From the IMG/VR virus record IMGVR_UViG_3300013018_000012, positions 1 through 28,064 of that record: DNA of 28,064 nt; one strand, 5' to 3'. The notes beneath the pieces were generated by a model. That model searched no databases. It saw only the letters and a program-made list of their open reading frames with translations, and was not told where the DNA came from. Position numbers and translations under genes: made by a program. The stretch is from a virus. Positions 19,289 through 28,064 of this stretch are shown one piece after another; the stretch's first letter is position 1; each line of letters begins with the position of its first letter.

Positions 19289-22027
19289 ATGGGAGTAGGA
19301 GCATTAGTCGGAATAGCAGCAGGAGCTGCAGCAGCTAGTACTGTTACGGGAGTTACAGTAGCAGCTGGAGCGATGATTGGTTTTAGTGTGGGTAATTCTT
19401 ATGACAACTATAAAGAAGCAAAAGAATTTCAAGAAAGCATGAACCAATCAAAGAATTCGCCAACATATTCATTCGGACCGATAAGCAATACTAAAAGTCA
19501 TCAGATACCAGTACCGGTTGTCTATGGCGAAAATCTTGTTGCAGGAAACATAATCAATCAAAAAATACGCGGTGAAAATGATAATTTAATGGATCTTCAA
19601 GTTGGAATTTCAGAAGGCCCGATTGAATCAATAAAAAAAATTAAAGCTGACGATAAAACAATTAACGCAGAAACCAAATTAGGTTACAGAAAACAATCTG
19701 CCTGGTCGAAAAATGAACGCGGTCAAACATTCCCTTTCCTTGCCCACTATTCGACAACTCTTGACGCTAATAAATTAGAAACATCAGGAACTCCAACTAT
19801 GACCGCAATAATCAAGGGTAGGCATGTAAGAGTTTGGACTGGCAGCAGTTGGGTTACTAAATATAGTAATAATCCCGCGTGGTGTGTTTTAGATTTTATA
19901 AGCAAAATGAGATTTGGTTTTGGTGTTTCTGATGCTTTTATTGATTTAGAAAGTTTCAAAGAAGCTGCAGAATATGCTGATCAGCTTGTCGATGGAGAAA
20001 AAAGGTTTGAATTAGATTTTGCCATTGATGCTAAAAGTTCAGCATTAGACATTCTCAATGAAATGTTATCAACTTTTAGAGCATTTTTAATTTGGTCCAA
20101 TGGAAAATTAAAACTAAAAATTGATAAGCCAGATGTAGCAACTCAAAGCTTTGTATATTCTGATAATGAAGAAACCGACAATATTATTTCTGGTAGTTTC
20201 GCAAGGCGCGGAACATCACGCAAAGAAAGACTTAGAGAAGTAGTCGTTGAATATACAGATCCAGCTGAAAATTTTGAAACTATTGGAGCGAGATTTATTG
20301 ATAATAGTGTTCCTGGAGAATCGATTAAAACCATAACTCTTAATGGTATTAATCGTTTTAGTCAAGCAGGGCGAGAAGCTAGATATTATCAAAAGAAATC
20401 AAAGTTTTGCACTCAAATAATCAGTTTTGGAGCAAGCATAAAAGATATTGAAGCAGAAGTCGGCGATAAAATATTAGTTACCCATAAAAGACCAGGTTGG
20501 GTTGATAAACCTTTCCGAATTATGGAAATAGAAGAAGCCGAAGATCATAATATGACTATTACTGCTCTTGAATATAATGAATCTATTTATACTGATGATG
20601 GAGTTGTGCAGCAGGAGAATTACGGCTCTGAATTTAAGAATCCTTTTGAAGCTCCTAATGAAGTAAATAATCTTTCTGTTTCTGAATACGGTTATACTAC
20701 CATGGATGGGAATTTAATCAGTAATTTAATCGTAGATTTTGATATTCCTGATGATGAAAGAGTTGATCATGCAGTAATTGATTATTCAGAAGATGGTAAA
20801 AGTTATAGAATAGCCGGAGAAACAGAAGCTGACAGCTTTGAAATATCTAATTTAAAAGTTAATTCTCATTATATTGTAAGAGTCCGGACAGTTTCAAAAT
20901 ATAGAGGTATTACAAGTTCTGGAGTTACTTCAAGAAAAATAGTTATATCAGGTAAAGATAATAAACCTGCAGCACCTGGCACCTTCCAAGTCGCTCAAAA
21001 AGGTGCAAAACTAATATTCAAGTGGCAGGAAGTAGATGAGCCAGATGTCTTAGGTTATGAAATTAGAAAAGGAACAGACTGGGATAATGGGGAAGTTCTG
21101 GGGACTAAACTTACTGGAGATAGATGGACATCTGAGAACGAAATTGACGGAACTCATATGTATATGATTAAGACAATTGATAGAGTAAGGCAGTATTCAA
21201 GCAGCTTTACTTCTACAATTTTTGAAGTTTCTGGGACCGGCCAGGAGCTTAACATAATTATCGAAAGAAATGAACTTGATTATATAGACAATGCAACACT
21301 AGATAATATAGACAATATTAACGGCAAGATAGCATTTTTCCACATGTATAATTTAGAAGACTTAGCTGGCTATAATCTTGATGATTGGCCTGATATTCCT
21401 GCTTTTGCAGACGGTTTGCCTGATTATGACTTTAGTGCCGAATATATTACAGAAATTATTGATACAGTCAGAGTTGGCCGGACAGATATAAGACTCAAAA
21501 AAGATTGGTTTTTCCAGGACTTAGGATTAAGTTTATTGAGTTTTCCTAATCGCGGACTTGATGATTTTCCTAATAATAGTTTAGACAATCCGCCTGCTAT
21601 TTATGAAACCGAAACATATGTAAGGTTTTCCGATGATAATGTTGAATGGTCAGACTGGCAGACGTACATGACTGGAGAATATAAATTTAGATATTGCCAG
21701 TTTAAATTTACTTTTCGGCTGGAGACAGAAACTGCTGAATTTGAGCTTAATGAAATTAAACAGTTTTTTGATGTTCCTGACTTAGAGCTAGAAATTGATA
21801 ATCTGTCAGTACCAGTAGGCGGAACAACAATTAATTACAGCGATTACGGAGTAGAATATTATGAAATTCCTAGAGGGTATAATTATTACTTGCTGCAAAA
21901 TGGATCAACAATGAAATATGCTGATTTTCAAAACAAAACTATAGATAGTGTAGATATAGTTATAAAAGATATCAATAATAATGATGTCGGAGGAACTGCA
22001 GAAAAAATTATAATCGAAGGATATTAA
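19289..22027 (+). CDS. Tail-tip attachment protein, gpJ-like, with N-terminal gpI-like segment (912 aa)
   Basis: This is the central tail-tip/host-specificity protein. Residues 1-35 are hydrophobic and Ala/Gly-rich (ALVGIAAGAAAASTVTG), like lambda gpI and unlike the gpJ start, suggesting a fused gpI-type segment. SHQIPVPVVYGENLVAGNI begins the gpJ-type core, and LDFISKMRFGFGVSDAFIDL with LDILNEMLSTFRAFLIWSNG is typical for the family. About 455-555 and 556-655 look like two fibronectin type III domains (NNLSVSEYGYTT..., KPAAPGTFQVAQKGAKLIF...). The last 250 residues are beta-rich and acidic, with similar LDNIDN / LDNPP segments, and probably form a trimeric fiber. ATG behind GTGAGGTGAGG. Confidence 0.9.
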   Translation: MGVGALVGIAAGAAAASTVTGVTVAAGAMIGFSVGNSYDNYKEAKEFQESMNQSKNSPTYSFGPISNTKSHQIPVPVVYGENLVAGNIINQKIRGENDNLMDLQVGISEGPIESIKKIKADDKTINAETKLGYRKQSAWSKNERGQTFPFLAHYSTTLDANKLETSGTPTMTAIIKGRHVRVWTGSSWVTKYSNNPAWCVLDFISKMRFGFGVSDAFIDLESFKEAAEYADQLVDGEKRFELDFAIDAKSSALDILNEMLSTFRAFLIWSNGKLKLKIDKPDVATQSFVYSDNEETDNIISGSFARRGTSRKERLREVVVEYTDPAENFETIGARFIDNSVPGESIKTITLNGINRFSQAGREARYYQKKSKFCTQIISFGASIKDIEAEVGDKILVTHKRPGWVDKPFRIMEIEEAEDHNMTITALEYNESIYTDDGVVQQENYGSEFKNPFEAPNEVNNLSVSEYGYTTMDGNLISNLIVDFDIPDDERVDHAVIDYSEDGKSYRIAGETEADSFEISNLKVNSHYIVRVRTVSKYRGITSSGVTSRKIVISGKDNKPAAPGTFQVAQKGAKLIFKWQEVDEPDVLGYEIRKGTDWDNGEVLGTKLTGDRWTSENEIDGTHMYMIKTIDRVRQYSSSFTSTIFEVSGTGQELNIIIERNELDYIDNATLDNIDNINGKIAFFHMYNLEDLAGYNLDDWPDIPAFADGLPDYDFSAEYITEIIDTVRVGRTDIRLKKDWFFQDLGLSLLSFPNRGLDDFPNNSLDNPPAIYETETYVRFSDDNVEWSDWQTYMTGEYKFRYCQFKFTFRLETETAEFELNEIKQFFDVPDLELEIDNLSVPVGGTTINYSDYGVEYYEIPRGYNYYLLQNGSTMKYADFQNKTIDSVDIVIKDINNNDVGGTAEKIIIEGY

Positions 22028-22039
22028 AGGAGTGATGAC

Positions 22040-22741
22040 ATGTCTCAAGATTTTGATATAAGAACGACAAATAAAGATGGGCTTGATGCTAATGGGCCCG
22101 GTCTTAAACAAGTTTTATATGGCAACTTTTTAGCTATTGTAACTCAATTTGCAGGAGAGACTGCTCCAACCGACACTTATCAGGGAATGCCCTGGTTAGA
22201 CATTTCGGAAGGTTGGGCAAATGCAAAAATGAAGTTTTGGAATGGGTCTGAGTGGGTGCTGCAGAATGAATATAATCCTTATATTAAGGATTTAAGAGTT
22301 TCGAGAGGAACAAAAAACACTCTCTGGGAGCGGCTAGAAGTTGCTCTTAATGAAGACGGAACTATCAAATCTGACCTTGCTGAAAATATGACTGAATGGA
22401 TTGACAGCGCATTAACTGCAACTTATGTAAGCGCTGATACTTTTACAGTGCCTGGTGACTATATAGATACATTCGTCACTAATAGAAAAATCAAAGCAAC
22501 TCTAGACGCAAGCTCAGTTTATTCAGCTGTAGAATCAGCAAATTATGATGGAGTCAATGATGAAACAACTATAGTGCTGTTTGATACAGTGATAGATGCA
22601 ACAATTCAGAAAGTCGAATATGGGCTTGTGAAGGCTGGCCCGGACGGCTCAAATCCAGAAAACAACTTGATAGATGAGACAACAGGCGATATTTACGAGC
22701 TAAAAATGATTGACGGCTCATTAGCAATGGAGGTTAGATAA
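22040..22741 (+). CDS. Putative tail fiber/baseplate protein (233 aa)
   Basis: The ATG at 22040 follows AAGGAGTGATGAC. The N-terminal half contains GMPWLDISEGWANAKMKFWNG, a motif of short fiber or collar proteins that act as adapters. A region of repeated short beta strands follows (TYVSADTFTVPGDYIDTFVT and on), and the protein ends DIYELKMIDGSLAMEVR, a typical fiber C-terminus. It sits between the tip protein and the DGR target, so it may carry or flank the variable protein. The family name is uncertain. Confidence 0.65.
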   Translation: MSQDFDIRTTNKDGLDANGPGLKQVLYGNFLAIVTQFAGETAPTDTYQGMPWLDISEGWANAKMKFWNGSEWVLQNEYNPYIKDLRVSRGTKNTLWERLEVALNEDGTIKSDLAENMTEWIDSALTATYVSADTFTVPGDYIDTFVTNRKIKATLDASSVYSAVESANYDGVNDETTIVLFDTVIDATIQKVEYGLVKAGPDGSNPENNLIDETTGDIYELKMIDGSLAMEVR

Positions 22742-22744
22742 TAT

Positions 22745-23056
22745 ATGAGAGGTTTTTCAAAAGTGCTTAATTCAAGACAGGATTATGAAAATGTGATTAA
22801 TGACTTTGGCTACACACCAAAAGTAAAAAGAGCATACCAGGGGCTGCTAAATACAGCCAAAAAGTATGAGTTCGACAAAGAACTTGCAGCAGAATCTGAT
22901 AGAACTGGCCCTGAGCCTGAGTACAAAGTTATGACTCAGGAAGAAGAGGGAGAAGAAAAGATAGTGCAGTTCAAGCTGGTAGATAATCCAAACGGAAAGA
23001 TATTTAGATTAGGATTTACAGTCGATGAAGTCCAGGAGGTGATTGACCAATGTTAA
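22745..23056 (+). CDS. Hypothetical protein preceding the DGR target (103 aa)
   Basis: The ATG is preceded by GGAGGTTAGATAAT inside the end of the previous gene. The protein is small and soluble: an N-terminal helix (QDYENVINDFGYTPKVKR), a second helix (AYQGLLNTAKKYEFDKEL), an acidic linker (QEEEGEEKIVQFKL) and a short tail (FRLGFTVDEVQEVIDQC). Its end overlaps the variable protein gene by 7 bases, and the ribosome binding site of the variable protein lies in it. A tail-fiber adaptor or assembly chaperone is possible; no family is recognised. Confidence 0.65.
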   Translation: MRGFSKVLNSRQDYENVINDFGYTPKVKRAYQGLLNTAKKYEFDKELAAESDRTGPEPEYKVMTQEEEGEEKIVQFKLVDNPNGKIFRLGFTVDEVQEVIDQC

Positions 23057-24087
23057 GTTTCGTAGGAGCTGATTCACCTTCATTCTACAATTTCAAAGGA
23101 CATATAGAAAAAAGCGCTGCTGATGAAATTACAGTACCGCCTCTGGCCCTGAGGATTGACAGACAAAATCTTAAAAAAGAAACTGATACTATTCTGACAG
23201 CCGCTGACAATGATGGGAGCTTTGCAAGTTTCACTCTTGGTGAAAACTATTATATATATGCGCTGCAACCATCAGCTGATGCTGAGCCCGATTTTGTTAT
23301 TTCAATCAATTCTACTTACCCGGATGGTTATACTGAAAACAATTCAAGAAAAATTGGAGGTTTTCACTACGGGCGTATTAGAACCACTGCTCAAAGATAT
23401 GATGATACTGCTTCAATTGCGGTTAATATACTACCTAATTCAGTATGGTCTCTTAATTATCGACCGGCTTGCGATCCAACCGGAATGGTCAAAGTATCTA
23501 ACTTCTGGGCTGACATATACCTTGCCAGTGAAGGGAGTGGGACTTGGCCAGAAACTGAACTTGTCAGTGAATACAATGCAACTCCAGTGTCAGGAACTGA
23601 AGGTTATAACGATTATGATTTTATTAGAGGTCTTGCTAATGTTGGAAAAAGCAAATTGACCAGGCAAGAATGGTTGATGGCTGCTTACGGTAGCCCGGAA
23701 GGTCATGAAAATGACAATAATGCTGCATGGTCTAGCTCAAGCAACTCAGGCAGAACCGCAACTGGAACTGTAGAACAAGCAGTTTCTTGTTATAACCTAG
23801 TCGATTGTGCTGGTAACCTTTGGGAAAGGCTAGATGAGTATACTTATAGATATACTGGAACTACATCATTTAATTGGTTTGATGTTTTAAACGCGGGGAA
23901 AGACTCTTCGCATCAACACGGAGAAGCCTATATACAAGGAAATCCTTCTATTATTGGGGTCCTCGCCGGTGGCACCTTCAACCATGGTGGCCTCTGCGGT
24001 GCTCGGACGGTCAACTCGCACGGTAACCCGTGGCACGTGATCACTGACATTGGCGTGCGTGGCGCCTGTGCTCATCAGAGTGCCTGA
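23050..24087 (+). CDS. DGR variable protein, C-type-lectin/FGE-like, probable receptor-binding tip (345 aa)
   Basis: This is the target of the diversity-generating retroelement. Start ATG follows CAGGAGGTGATTG. Residues 1 to about 95 are a separate beta-rich domain, probably for attachment to the tail. RKIGGFHYGRIRT, LPNSVWSLNYRPAC, SNFWADIYLASEG, SKLTRQEWLMAAYGSPEG and LVDCAGNLWERLDEY mark the formylglycine-enzyme/C-type-lectin fold used by many DGR proteins such as TvpA. The C-terminal GGTFNHGGLCGARTVNSH and GNPWHVITDIGVRGACAH form the variable region. Nine residues there (309, 312, 314, 315, 324, 325, 329, 331, 333) differ from the template. In BPP-1 the equivalent protein Mtd binds the host receptor; the same is inferred here from the tail context. 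Confidence 0.93.
   Translation: MLSFVGADSPSFYNFKGHIEKSAADEITVPPLALRIDRQNLKKETDTILTAADNDGSFASFTLGENYYIYALQPSADAEPDFVISINSTYPDGYTENNSRKIGGFHYGRIRTTAQRYDDTASIAVNILPNSVWSLNYRPACDPTGMVKVSNFWADIYLASEGSGTWPETELVSEYNATPVSGTEGYNDYDFIRGLANVGKSKLTRQEWLMAAYGSPEGHENDNNAAWSSSSNSGRTATGTVEQAVSCYNLVDCAGNLWERLDEYTYRYTGTTSFNWFDVLNAGKDSSHQHGEAYIQGNPSIIGVLAGGTFNHGGLCGARTVNSHGNPWHVITDIGVRGACAHQSA
23958..24076 (+). repeat. DGR variable repeat (VR), 119 bp
   Basis: This aligns without gaps to the template repeat at 24514-24632 (constant offset 556). 109 of 119 positions are identical. The ten differences are at 23975, 23983, 23989, 23992, 24019, 24022, 24023, 24034, 24041 and 24046; in every case the template has A, and the VR has C (5), G (4) or T (1). 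The last 30 bases are identical and GC-rich, a likely initiation-of-mutagenic-homing segment. The base composition (mostly G+C) differs sharply from flanking DNA. Confidence 0.97.
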
Positions 24088-24088
24088 T
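24074..24088 (+). other. Short dyad at the 3' end of VR, candidate homing signal
   Basis: ATCAG (24074-24078) pairs with CTGAT (24084-24088) around a 5-base loop. It overlaps the last three VR bases and spans the stop codon. It is absent after the TR. BPP-1 needs a hairpin just downstream of its VR for efficient retrohoming; this one is shorter and could be chance. Confidence 0.3.
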
Positions 24089-24137
24089 AATCTGAAAATG
24101 GTTTTTGGTTAGTTTTTGAACTTGAAGGAGTGGTGAT

Positions 24138-24491
24138 TTGGCAGACACAGATGATCTAGTGATATTCAGAAAACATTATGACTTTACTCTTTATTTCTAT
24201 CCAGTAATAGACAACTTTCCAAAAAGAGAAAAATTTGCGATGTGCACCAAATTGAAAAATAAACCCTATAGAATTATGGATTTGATAATAGACGCAAATG
24301 AAACTCAAGGAAGCAAAATAAGGTTTTTAGACAGGATAGATGATGAGTTAAAAAAGCTAAAAGTTCAGATAAGGCTTGCTAAAGACATGCATTATTTATC
24401 AATAAGGAAACATAAAATTGTAGTAAAAAAATTAGACGAAATTGGCCGTCTTCTGGGCGGCTGGATTAAGTCTTGTAAAAATAAAAAATAA
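24138..24491 (+). CDS. avd: DGR accessory variability determinant (117 aa)
   Basis: This is a small, basic, four-helix-bundle protein of the Avd family. It forms a pentameric barrel, binds the RT and template RNA, and is required for mutagenic reverse transcription. The family pattern is clear: helix 1 FRKHYDFTLYFYPVIDNFPK, then REKFAMCTKLKNKPYRIMDL, then the diagnostic IDDELKKLKVQIRLAKDMHY and LSIRKHKIVVKKLDEIGRLL, ending GGWIKS. The TTG start follows AAGGAGTGGTG at 8 bases. Its stop lies 22 bases before the TR, the same order as in BPP-1. Confidence 0.95.
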   Translation: MADTDDLVIFRKHYDFTLYFYPVIDNFPKREKFAMCTKLKNKPYRIMDLIIDANETQGSKIRFLDRIDDELKKLKVQIRLAKDMHYLSIRKHKIVVKKLDEIGRLLGGWIKSCKNKK

Positions 24492-24513
24492 ATTTTACAG
24501 GGCTAAGGGCGTT

Positions 24514-24632
24514 GGTCCTCGCCGGTGGCAACTTCAACAATGGTAGCATCTGCGGTGCTCGGACGGTCAACTCGAACAATAACCCGTGGAACGTGAACAC
24601 TAACATTGGCGTGCGTGGCGCCTGTGCTCATC
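24514..24632 (+). repeat. DGR template repeat (TR), 119 bp
   Basis: This is the invariant template transcribed into RNA and copied by the RT with adenine-specific errors. It contains 26 adenines, of which 10 are changed in the current VR. Read in the VR frame it would encode AGGNFNNGSICGARTVNS, NNNPWNVNTNIGVRGACAH; the asparagine (AAY) codons are the classic DGR targets. No adenine falls in a third codon position. G+C is 68 of 119 bases, against a strongly AT-rich background. Confidence 0.97.
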
Positions 24633-24863
24633 TAAAAATTTATCAGACAGTATGGGGTCAAGGCCTCTGCTGCAGTGTTCAAAAAGATGAACAGGCCTTT
24701 AGTCCTTCCTGAGATACATTTTGTCCCTCCAGGAAAAAATATAAATCACTAATTAGATAGCAAGTAGCGAAATATCGAAAGCTGTCACGATTAGTTATGA
24801 GCTCGCTCTCATTTGAGCGGGCTTGAATATTTCACCCAAATATAGAGAAAGTGGTGATTATTT
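24633..24863 (+). ncRNA. DGR template-RNA 3' spacer, structured, between TR and RT
   Basis: This 231-base gap has no credible gene. Hairpins visible: 24660-24665 with 24694-24699 (AAGGCC/GGCCTT), enclosing 24676-24680 with 24689-24693 (TGTTC/GAACA); 24706-24711 with 24730-24735 (TTCCTG/CAGGAA); and 24801-24808 with 24815-24822 (GCTCGCTC/GAGCGGGC, one G-U). In BPP-1 the spacer after TR folds and primes cDNA synthesis with Avd and RT, so this region is probably part of the functional RNA. No clear promoter was seen for it. Confidence 0.65.
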
Positions 24864-25976
24864 ATTCCTAAGACAGTCAAAAATTTGTTTGAGAAGATAA
24901 CTGATTATCATAACTTGGAAATAGCAACTCAAAATGCTCAAAAGAGAAAAAGATATAAACCAGAAGTGTTAAAGTTTAATTACAATTTAGAGAGAAATCT
25001 TATTGAGATACAAAATGAATTGATGTGGAAAACATATGAACAGGGAAAATACAGACAGTTTTATGTTTATGAGCCGAAAAAGAGACTGATTATGGCCTTG
25101 CCTTTTCGTGACAGAGTGGTCCAGTGGAGCATATATCAAAACCTTTACCCGATATTTGATAAGACATTTTATAGATATAGCGGCGCTTGTCGCAAAGGAA
25201 AAGGAACTCATTTTACTGCATATCAGCTGCAGGACAAGTTAAGAATAATGGACCGCAAGCCAGGGAAAACATATTTTTTAAAAGCTGACGTATCAAAATA
25301 TTTTTATCGGATAGTTCATAAAAGATTATTTCAACTAATCAAAAGGAAAATCAGCTGCAGAGATACATTAGAATTAATCTGGCAGATAATCAAAAGTGAA
25401 GATGGTGAATTTGGCATCCAGTTAGGGGATCACTTCTTTGAAAATGAAAAAATCAAAGGAATTGGCACACCAATTGGTAACCTAATGAGTCAGCTTTTTG
25501 CAAATATTTATCTTGATTTTCTAGATAAGTTTGTAAAACACACTCTAAAAGTTAAATACTATGTTCGTTATATGGATGACTTTGTAATTTTAGGAAAAGA
25601 CAAAAATAAACTTCATACTATTAGACAGGAAATAGAGATTTTTCTTGCTGATTATCTCCAGCTGCAGCTTAACAATAAAACTACCGTCGGCCATGTAGAT
25701 GAAGGGATAGATTTTTGCGGATATGTTTTATATCCGAGTTATAGTAAATTGAGAAAATCAACTAAAAAGAAAATGAAAAAACGATTTAAGTATCTTAACA
25801 AAAAATATTTTGAAGGGAAGGTGGATATCGAGGATATTAATGCCAGTGTTAATTCCTATCTGGGAATTATTAAACACTGCGATAGCTATAATTTAAAAAT
25901 GTCAGTGATAAGTAAATTAGATGATCATATACTGGAACAACTTGATTTAGGCGACCGGTTAAAATTAAAAAGTTGA
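24864..25976 (+). CDS. DGR reverse transcriptase (about 370 aa), probable ATT start
   Basis: This is a retroelement reverse transcriptase that makes mutagenic cDNA from the TR RNA. Motifs in 370-aa numbering: TYFLKADVSKYFYRI with catalytic D142, GTPIGNLMSQLFANIYLD (204-210, where DGR RTs have I/L-G-N-x-x-S-Q instead of Q-G), and YVRYMDDFVILG with YMDD at 236-239. N-terminal KRYKPEVLKFNYNLE and YEPKKRLIMALPFRDRVVQW are typical of the family. The conserved N-terminus (KNLFEKITD) starts before the first TTG (24885). An in-frame ATT at 24864, about 8 bases after GTGGTG, restores PKTVKNLFEKITD and is my choice. The length is normal for the family. Confidence 0.95.
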   Translation: MPKTVKNLFEKITDYHNLEIATQNAQKRKRYKPEVLKFNYNLERNLIEIQNELMWKTYEQGKYRQFYVYEPKKRLIMALPFRDRVVQWSIYQNLYPIFDKTFYRYSGACRKGKGTHFTAYQLQDKLRIMDRKPGKTYFLKADVSKYFYRIVHKRLFQLIKRKISCRDTLELIWQIIKSEDGEFGIQLGDHFFENEKIKGIGTPIGNLMSQLFANIYLDFLDKFVKHTLKVKYYVRYMDDFVILGKDKNKLHTIRQEIEIFLADYLQLQLNNKTTVGHVDEGIDFCGYVLYPSYSKLRKSTKKKMKKRFKYLNKKYFEGKVDIEDINASVNSYLGIIKHCDSYNLKMSVISKLDDHILEQLDLGDRLKLKS

Positions 25977-26036
25977 TGTGATACACAGATAAACAAAAAC
26001 TTTTGCCTTGTAGCGGGGCTGTTTTGAGGTGATTTG

Positions 26037-26411
26037 ATGGAAAGCAAAGGGCACAGTATTGATGATTGCCCCTTAAGAGAAAAAATAGAAGATAATCATG
26101 ATAGATCAAAAGATAACGAAAGAAAAATTAAAGAGCTGATGTCAGGAGACTGGTACTCAAACAAAGAGCTATACAAAATGATACAAAGCTTAACTTCTCA
26201 GCTGACTGAGTTCAATGGAAAATTTGACAAATATAATGGACTAATTGAAGAAAGAAAAAAAGACAGGAAATTACTTAATCAACTTAATGAAAAAGTAAAT
26301 AAAATAGATACTAAAGGAAAAACAAAAAAGGAAATTACTACGAATTGGAGAGAATGGATTGGCTGGGTAATTGCAATTTTATTAGCATTATCAAAACTGG
26401 GGGTTTTTTAA
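26037..26411 (+). CDS. XhlA-like membrane-anchored coiled-coil protein (124 aa)
   Basis: The ATG follows GAGGTGATTTG. The N-terminus is polar (ESKGHSIDDCPLREKIE), then long coiled-coil helices (LTSQLTEFNGKFDKYNGLIE, KLLNQLNEKVNKIDTKG). A single C-terminal membrane segment follows (WIGWVIAILLALSKLGVF). This layout, just before lysin and holin genes, is that of the haemolysin XhlA-like family of phages, which works with the lysis proteins. It could alternatively be a tail-associated protein, but the order argues for lysis. Confidence 0.7.
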   Translation: MESKGHSIDDCPLREKIEDNHDRSKDNERKIKELMSGDWYSNKELYKMIQSLTSQLTEFNGKFDKYNGLIEERKKDRKLLNQLNEKVNKIDTKGKTKKEITTNWREWIGWVIAILLALSKLGVF

Positions 26412-26412
26412 A

Positions 26413-26931
26413 ATGGATAATATTTTTAAAAAAGCTTTTGAAGAAGTAATGGAAATTGAAGGTGGCTATGTTAACCACAAAGATGATCCTGGTGGTGCCA
26501 CTAATTTTGGCATCACAGAAGCAGTAGCAAGAAGAAATGGCTATGAAGGAGATATGAGAGACTTAAAACTGCACCAGGCCAGAGACATCTATTATTATGA
26601 ATTTTGGCTTGACCAGAAATATAACAAAATTAAAAACAGAGATGTAGCAATTGAAATGTTTGATCAGGCAGTAAACATGGGACCTGGCCGAGCTAATAGA
26701 AATTTACAAAAATCTTATAATTTACTTTCTGATAATCAAATTTCAGTTGATGGAGCAATCGGCCCTAATACTTTAAAAGCTGTTAATAGCTGTAATAAGC
26801 CGGTGGGATTGTTTAATCTACTTAATGGCTATCAAATTATGCATTACATTAACCTTGCTGAAAACAGCCAAAAATATAGGTCATTTATTCGTGGCTGGGT
26901 TAATAAAAGAATAGAAATTATAAGGAAGTGA
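26413..26931 (+). CDS. Endolysin, glycoside hydrolase 108 type (172 aa)
   Basis: This peptidoglycan-cutting lysozyme of the GH108 (DUF847) family matches along most of its length. FEEVMEIEGGYVNHKDDPGG carries catalytic E16; TNFGITEAVARRNGY, AIEMFDQAVNMGPGRANRNL and the C-terminal domain VDGAIGPNTLKAV (a peptidoglycan-binding-3-like fold) follow. There is no signal peptide, so export relies on a holin. It starts one base after the previous stop and overlaps the next short frame region. Confidence 0.93.
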   Translation: MDNIFKKAFEEVMEIEGGYVNHKDDPGGATNFGITEAVARRNGYEGDMRDLKLHQARDIYYYEFWLDQKYNKIKNRDVAIEMFDQAVNMGPGRANRNLQKSYNLLSDNQISVDGAIGPNTLKAVNSCNKPVGLFNLLNGYQIMHYINLAENSQKYRSFIRGWVNKRIEIIRK

Positions 26932-26936
26932 CTACT

Positions 26937-27176
26937 ATGGAAGAACAAAAAGTAAATGAAGTTAATCTAAAAGAAGACTCTAATAATAACAATATTCCTG
27001 ACTGGGCAGAGTTTACAGCTACATATCTAATTGCAGCTGTTTGCGTTAGTATGGCTGTAGCTGGTTACATCAGGCAGGATTTAGACGGTTCAATTATTAA
27101 ATGGTTGTTAGGTTTTGGTGTCGTTCTGACTGGCGGCCGTGATGCTATCAAAGCTTTCATTAAAAGAAAGGTGTAA
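26937..27176 (+). CDS. Holin-like small membrane protein (79 aa)
   Basis: The ATG at 26937 lies 10 bases behind AAGGA; a GTG at 26928 is the alternative. The N-terminus is polar and acidic (EEQKVNEVNLKEDSNNNN), followed by two membrane segments (TATYLIAAVCVSMAVAGYI, then WLLGFGVVLTGGRDAI) and a basic tail (KAFIKRKV). This is the two-helix layout of class II holins, which make the membrane hole that lets the endolysin through. It directly follows the endolysin gene. Confidence 0.75.
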   Translation: MEEQKVNEVNLKEDSNNNNIPDWAEFTATYLIAAVCVSMAVAGYIRQDLDGSIIKWLLGFGVVLTGGRDAIKAFIKRKV

Positions 27177-27180
27177 TAAA

Positions 27181-27621
27181 ATGTACCTAATAAAATACTT
27201 GCTTTATATCTTAGAGCACAAATGTAATGTTTTTAAAATCTCAATTAAAAAAGGATATTATTTGCATGCTTTAACTCATGATTTAAGTAAGTTTAGCGGC
27301 AGTGAATTCTTGGCGTATGCTGGTTATTTCTACAAAGATAAGGCAAAATATAAACATCGCTTTGAAATGGCTTGGAGACATCATTATTACAACAATCCAC
27401 ATCATTGGCAGCATTGGCTGGATACAGATGGGAATCCAATAGAAATTCCAGATAAATACATTGAACAAATGATAATTGACTGGGAGGCTATGGGTATCAA
27501 ATTTAATGACACTGCAAAAGAATATTATTTAAAAAATAAAAATAAAATAAAATTAACTCCGCATACAAGAACTAATCTAGAAATAAAATTAAAAGTGGGT
27601 GGTCAAAATGCTAAAAACTAA
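27181..27621 (+). CDS. DUF5662-like phage protein (146 aa)
   Basis: The ATG at 27181 follows AAGGTGTAATAA; a longer frame from 27139 has no ribosome binding site. It has His-rich conserved motifs: HALTHDLSKFSGSEFLAY with H33, D34 and K37, and AWRHHYYNNPHHWQHWL with H67, H68, H74 and H75. This is the pattern of the DUF5662 family found near phage lysis and late genes. The His/Asp spacing suggests metal binding, HD-domain-like, but no reaction is known. Its end overlaps the spanin-like gene. Confidence 0.82.
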   Translation: MYLIKYLLYILEHKCNVFKISIKKGYYLHALTHDLSKFSGSEFLAYAGYFYKDKAKYKHRFEMAWRHHYYNNPHHWQHWLDTDGNPIEIPDKYIEQMIIDWEAMGIKFNDTAKEYYLKNKNKIKLTPHTRTNLEIKLKVGGQNAKN

Positions 27622-27964
27622 GCATAAAATCATATTAATTGTTATTGCTGCACTGTTAGTTATTGGTGCTCTATTTTTTGGAGGTTGGAAGCTGGCTTCT
27701 CTTTTAGGTATCGGAGCTGCAGCTGGTGGGTACAAAGCTGCAAGCAAACAGGTCCAGAAGCAAGCTGATCAGGAAAAAGAAGTAGTTAATGAAGTAGAAA
27801 AGGATATCGATAATAGAAAAGAGAAAGACCAGGAGCTGCAGAAAAAGTCAGAAAATCGCAAAGAAAAAGCTGAGAAACTTAATAATAATCAAAAAAACAG
27901 GCAGAAAAGAGCTGAAAGTTTAGAGGATAGGCTTAATAACCACACAGAAGGTGATAACAATTAA
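27608..27964 (+). CDS. Inner-membrane spanin-like protein (i-spanin, 118 aa)
   Basis: The ATG at 27608 follows GTGGGTGG; GTG at 27599 is the alternative. The N-terminus is a single membrane anchor (LIVIAALLVIGALFFGGWKL) with positive residues before it. The rest is a long charged coiled coil (KQADQEKEVVNEVEKDIDN and on, Asn/Lys/Glu-rich). It is in the Rz-like position, after holin, and its 3' end overlaps a small signal-peptide frame, like Rz/Rz1. If true, the host has an outer membrane. A plain membrane-anchored coiled-coil protein is the other option. Confidence 0.6.
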   Translation: MLKTKHKIILIVIAALLVIGALFFGGWKLASLLGIGAAAGGYKAASKQVQKQADQEKEVVNEVEKDIDNRKEKDQELQKKSENRKEKAEKLNNNQKNRQKRAESLEDRLNNHTEGDNN

Positions 27965-28064
27965 ACGTCTACTTGTATTTTTAATAGTTTTATCTTTGCT
28001 TTTTGTGCCGATTGTTGTCAATGCTCAGGAGTTAGATCCTCCGAAAGAATATGATCAACTCCTG
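27951..28064 (+). CDS. Signal-peptide protein overlapping the i-spanin gene, possible o-spanin, truncated by window end
   Basis: Thirty-eight codons are visible. A hydrophobic signal sequence (KRLLVFLIVLSLLFVPIVV) ends in a VNAQ type cleavage site, followed by ELDPPKEYDQLL. It overlaps the end of the previous gene by 14 bases in another frame, which recalls Rz1 embedded in Rz, and its mature part begins proline-rich. There is no lipobox cysteine in the visible part, so it is not a standard lipoprotein o-spanin. The start is uncertain: GTG at 27951 or ATT at 27960 behind GAAGGTG. Confidence 0.5.
   Translation, partial: MITIKRLLVFLIVLSLLFVPIVVNAQELDPPKEYDQLL

Follow-up and report, generated by a model that had tools for sequence, protein, structure and literature searches.

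Comparison with the closest described systems

More than 30,000 diversity-generating retroelements (DGRs) have been catalogued, and phage DGRs aimed at tail proteins are common (PMC8144416). The locus analyzed here, at positions 23050 to 25976 of a 28,064-base IMG/VR record that is probably a fragment (the window), can be placed beside four DGRs. With the tropism-switching cassette of Bordetella phage BPP-1 it shares the gene order mtd-avd-TR-brt, Avd, the adenine bias between template repeat (TR) and variable repeat (VR), and an Mtd-type target (26% identity over residues 52 to 342), with a reverse transcriptase (RT) about 36% identical. It differs from BPP-1 in that the window phage has another tail type, with a gpJ-like tip, and a Firmicute host, in its longer TR-RT spacer (252 nt, against 144 nt between the annotated TR and brt in BPP-1), and in having no GC-rich hairpin with GRNA loop behind VR.

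The DGR of Chromohalobacter phage YPCBV-1 carries the closest variable protein (VP) in the phage records compared (47% identity, followed by Bordetella Mtd proteins at 26%) and the same succession of small ORFs, VP, Avd, and RT, but its RT is only 35% identical, its phage is of the baseplate kind, and it has a GC-rich hairpin with a GGCA loop. By RT, the nearest member of the phage collection is the DGR of Bacillus phage BalMu-1 (53%), which likewise has an Avd-like ORF and a TR just before the RT, but sits in a Mu-like phage, diversifies another VP with an FRSA-type VR end, and has a CTG array plus hairpin. A second Halanaerobium saccharolyticum DGR (L059) comes from the same host genus and has an RT about 71% identical to that of the window, but its VR is FRSA-type and is followed by a GGGGTGGGC-GATA hairpin-like repeat. 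L059 lies on a second contig of the same genome as the relative L024.

Seen against these systems, the window DGR is a further case of a known DGR type, and its departure is the absence of the GC-rich hairpin behind VR. We read it, with a probability of roughly 0.93, as a complete and recently active DGR of a temperate tailed phage that has a lambda-like tail tip and infects the salt-loving bacterium Halanaerobium. It would bring Mtd-type DGRs to temperate Halanaerobium phages; our literature search found no paper on DGRs in Halanaerobium.

An intact cassette aimed at an Mtd homolog

The sequence establishes the parts and their order: VP, avd, TR, and RT all lie on the plus strand with intact frames. 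A preliminary description had compared this organization with mtd-avd-TR-brt of BPP-1 and called every component intact. The gene order is indeed the same, and the VP proves to be a genuine homolog of Mtd and not only an analog; the claim of completeness holds for VP, avd, TR, and RT at their positions, but no GC-rich hairpin of the usual kind follows VR.

The VP gene (23050 to 24087, plus strand) encodes 345 amino acids. It matches the Pfam mtd_2nd domain (PF21916, E = 5.6e-25) and the PHROG 11262 tail protein family (8.6e-51), and residues 52 to 342 align with the solved BPP-1 Mtd (PDB 1yu4, E = 1.6e-13), including the C-terminal region that holds VR (codons 304 to 342). As an AlphaFold model built on 17 relatives was unusable (pLDDT 30), the C-type lectin fold of the VP rests on sequence homology to Mtd. 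Three plus-strand genes precede the VP. The first encodes a gpJ-like central tail fiber or tip protein (19289 to 22027; PHROG 31, central tail fiber J, 3.3e-84; PF13550), the second is an unannotated ORF (22040 to 22741), and the third is a small ORF (22745 to 23056) whose last 7 nt (23050 to 23056) are shared with the start of the VP. Neither of the two ORFs has a Pfam, NCBIfam, or PHROG match.

From this homology and this position downstream of the gpJ-like gene, we infer that the VP is a receptor-binding tail protein, in agreement with the preliminary description. It could also be speculated that an active DGR diversifies a VP that does not act in attachment but, for example, in surface display on a lysogen. 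The phage family is probably temperate, and surface proteins are frequent among cellular DGR targets (PMC8144416), both of which would suit such a role. The VP is, however, homologous to a proven phage receptor-binding protein and matches a PHROG tail family, and its gene lies directly after the tail-tip genes; we regard a non-attachment role as improbable.

Avd and reverse transcriptase

The ORF at 24138 to 24491 (plus strand, TTG start, 117 amino acids) is Avd, the accessory variability determinant, with a score of 105 bits against a cut-off of 80 for NF033474 (1.8e-30) and a match to Pfam bAvd (PF22296, 1.6e-28). For the ORF at 24885 to 25976 (plus strand, TTG start, 363 amino acids), the top match is the solved RT 8ub7 (2.5e-51), whose chain sequence in the alignment agrees with the BPP-1 Brt translation; it also matches PHROG 1423 (5.6e-132). 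It carries YMDD and the sequence IGNLMSQ, which fits the (I/V/L)GxxxSQ motif that defines DGR-type RTs (PMC3521204).

An ordinary group II intron-type or defense RT beside a chance repeat could in principle present a similar picture, and the top NCBIfam RT model is indeed group_II_RT_mat. Its score of 126.6 bits, however, falls far short of the cut-off of 300, and the SQ motif stands where group II RTs have QGxxxSP. QGxxxSP is present in the intact group II RTs of these Halanaerobium genomes, which form a separate clade (100/100 support, branch length 2.86) in the RT tree; owing to L166, a fourth group II sequence that is a fragment on a branch of length 10 and was disregarded, the formal count does not come to one clade. 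The preliminary description had named the RT phylogeny as a check, and the window RT groups with DGR RTs and apart from the group II RTs of the host genomes. As Avd and an adenine-specific TR/VR pair are also present, we give the group II or defense reading practically no weight; the adenine bias, the sub-cut-off score, and the tree refute it.

Adenine-specific repeats and probable recent activity

VR (23958 to 24076) and TR (24514 to 24632), both on the plus strand, are 119-nt direct repeats with 92% identity, and their homology stops abruptly at either end. All 10 mismatches face TR adenines, which make up 26 of the 119 positions (hypergeometric p = 5e-8), a bias far beyond chance; the VP codons altered are 309, 312, 314, 315, 324, 325, 329, 331, and 333. 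The final 30 nt of the two repeats, compared as an IMH-like 3' end, are identical and GC-rich but not composed of G and C only. Across 98 related loci, 1203 TR/VR mismatches fall at adenines and 49 elsewhere, a biased count, as the finder favors adenine mismatches.

The VR-invariance test proposed in the preliminary description was run on public contigs, which are metagenomic assemblies in which each VR is an assembled consensus. Four contig types have about 5.5 kb in common, with one SNP outside VR and 12 to 18 nt different within it. Contig L004 differs from the window at 16 sites between 22485 and 28064; one of these lies in avd and the other 15 in the 119-nt VR, corresponding to a divergence of about 12.6% in VR versus 0.02% outside. 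Downstream of 22040, contigs G001, G002, G003, and L029 each differ from the window at one site outside VR and at 14 to 18 sites inside. One VR is common to G001, G002, and L029, leaving four distinct VRs, that of the window included, which differ pairwise at 12 to 18 sites. On this near-identical backbone, 21 of the 24 variable VR columns stand at a TR adenine, and TR itself is identical in seven viral contigs whose VRs, where complete, differ.

These comparisons establish replacement of VR in natural populations, with VR varying among near-identical phages while TR stays constant. Because the VRs differ almost entirely at TR adenines, on near-identical backbones with identical TRs, the window DGR has very probably been active recently. 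The evidence for natural activity is clean in that identical genes are joined to different receptor tips, and by analogy with BPP-1 the changes would have been made by the resident RT and Avd through mutagenic retrohoming.

Alternatively, the locus could be a relic in which homing has been lost and the VR diversity is old standing variation that recombination between phages keeps or spreads. Mosaicism is seen in the phage family: in one relative (L030) TR is 100% and the RT DNA 99.8% identical to the window, avd 88%, and the constant region of the VP 84%, and VP and RT parts therefore recombine. A truly dead DGR also exists in H. salsuginis. Yet contigs whose VRs differ by 12 to 18 nt show 100% identity in the constant region of the VP, TR, spacer, and RT, so that import of whole VRs would need breaks exactly at the VR ends with the flanks unchanged. 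The location of the differences at TR adenines and the intact RT, Avd, and TR likewise speak against a relic, which we consider very improbable, and we retain the reading of a recently active DGR.

The dead DGR of H. salsuginis (L025, NZ_FOTI01000043, 7968 to 8402) is broken with its VP and VR intact. A single deletion took most of avd, TR, and the N-terminal half of the RT, fusing the avd start (LADTDD) to the RT sequence DDFVLLGKDK, and its VP tip is now frozen.

A missing hairpin and a CTG array behind VR

Phage DGRs have been described with a GC-rich hairpin of 7 to 10 bp and a GRNA loop, 4 to 34 bp behind VR, which was proposed as a conserved requirement (PMC3240598); a further report finds the hairpin important but not strictly required (PMC12875486). 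A strong hairpin is present in 47 of 60 dereplicated related DGRs, with a GRNA loop in 38 of the 47, versus 3% of shuffles. No GC-rich inverted repeat was found within 180 nt in the window or in its Mtd-type relatives L010, L012, L015, L023, L067, and L069. The best candidate for a BPP-1-like hairpin behind VR, ATCAG-N5-CTGAT, was rejected, being not conserved in L008, L010, L013, and L015. Hairpin-like repeats do occur in L059 and L017, sister DGRs from this host lineage whose VR is FRSA-type. The Halanaerobium Mtd-type family seems to home without a GC-rich hairpin, or to employ another element, and would be an apparently active lineage without a feature proposed as a general requirement. 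The missing hairpin, together with the array described below, gives the locus its value for specialist follow-up; the element itself is of moderate interest.

Directly behind VR, the window family keeps a block (24084 to 24112, plus strand) that aligns in relatives and reads CTG-ATAAT-CTG-AAAA-TGG-TTTT-TGG. In the window, CTG at 24084 and 24092 is followed by TGG at 24099 and 24106, giving two canonical units and degenerate ones. The block is a degenerate CTG array and a candidate target-recognition element, and the window is a weak example of a pattern whose parent form is likely a run of CTG units, mostly AATCTG or AACTG, in steps of 7 to 8 nt.

The pattern was examined in about 98 DGRs fetched by similarity to the window RT, a sample limited to similar RTs, and as it was found by looking, the statistics are exploratory, despite a very large effect. 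The first 55 nt behind VR contain on average 3.42 CTG across 60 dereplicated loci, compared with 1.63 in dinucleotide shuffles. At least three CTG occur behind VR in 47 of the 60, but in only two in the next 55 nt and in two behind TR. Of 150 CTG spacings, 123 are steps of 7 or 8 nt, where about 5 would be expected. Across 96 loci, the density of the form CTG-N4/5-CTG-N4/5-CTG is 14.5 per kb behind VR and 0.02 per kb in the remaining sequence (about 730-fold). Where an Avd-sized ORF separates VR from TR, 48 of 66 DGRs have an array of at least three YTG units; of five DGRs without such an ORF, none has one. No such array occurs behind TR, and 1% of shuffles contain one. The array usually precedes the known hairpin. 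It is lacking in crAss-like phages, Perkons, two archaeal-virus records, Bise, and L157.

BPP-1 keeps CTG-7-TTG within the region called IMH, and by analogy the array may act as an acceptor mark, as IMH does there. It can tentatively be proposed, at somewhat less than even odds, that Avd-type phage DGRs mark their target by an undescribed cis element of three to four CTG (YTG) units, 7 to 8 nt apart, that starts about 5 to 20 nt behind VR, is absent behind TR, and is normally followed by the known hairpin. This would be the general counterpart of the BPP-1 IMH, and the Halanaerobium Mtd-type DGRs, including that of the window, would demonstrate that a degenerate array without a GC-rich hairpin is compatible with continued homing. 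A description of the array was not found in the literature searched, which did not cover Wu et al. 2018 (NAR). Discrimination between VR and TR is only partly understood outside BPP-1, and a simple conserved element would open this problem to direct testing and could also aid the finding of remote targets and the design of DGR tools.

Two other explanations of the array were rejected. As coding sequence it would not account for steps of 7 to 8 nt, which are not multiples of three, and most arrays extend beyond the stop codon. The window sequence suggests pairing of CAG motifs behind TR with the CTG motifs behind VR, but the CAG motifs are missing from several loci that have the array, and there is no covariation.

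Template RNA and proposed mechanism

The TR-RT spacer (24633 to 24884, plus strand) is predicted to form a structured template RNA. Its 252 nt are 91 to 97% identical in relatives whose avd is 77 to 90% and RT DNA about 70 to 99% identical, and it folds better than shuffles (z = -2.73). Nine predicted pairs in several helices have compensating changes on both sides, although these come mostly from one divergent group (L015, L023, and L024) and represent few independent events. An Rfam search gave no match.

Just behind TR, a plus-strand stem-loop flanked by CAGA(AG) and CAGTG (24644 to 24677) recurs in many phage DGRs and probably belongs to the template RNA bound by RT and Avd. The wider idea of one RNA stem-loop conserved across all DGRs was not upheld, as an alignment of 16 sequences gave just a short covarying stem, which is weak.

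On the model of BPP-1, an RNA spanning avd, TR, and spacer would be bound by RT and Avd, and TR would be copied by the RT with misincorporation at adenines. The cDNA would then replace VR and leave TR unchanged, so that the VP tip would be renewed and attachment to host cells altered. It is probably the block at 24084 to 24112 that distinguishes VR from TR as the acceptor, a role that IMH and the hairpin have in BPP-1.

Phage and host context

Upstream of the DGR lie genes for terminase, portal, protease, capsid, major tail protein, tape measure, minor tail proteins, and gpJ, and an endolysin gene lies downstream. Relatives at 72 to 80% RT identity sit in H. saccharolyticum, H. salsuginis, and a Halanaerobiales MAG, which bears out the low-GC Firmicute host suggested in the preliminary description. 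Contig G003, 99.6% identical to window positions 23847 to 28064, carries beside its lysis genes a putative tyrosine integrase (390 amino acids) and a putative CI-like repressor (211 amino acids), both read from their sequences, and on account of these ORFs the phage is probably temperate.

Between 18060 and 22040 the tail genes of the window are strongly diverged from those of G001 and G003, with near-100% identity downstream of about 22040; this point, just before the DGR module, is a recombination boundary. Within the lysis region, positions 27181 to 27621 encode a DUF5662 protein (4.7e-30).
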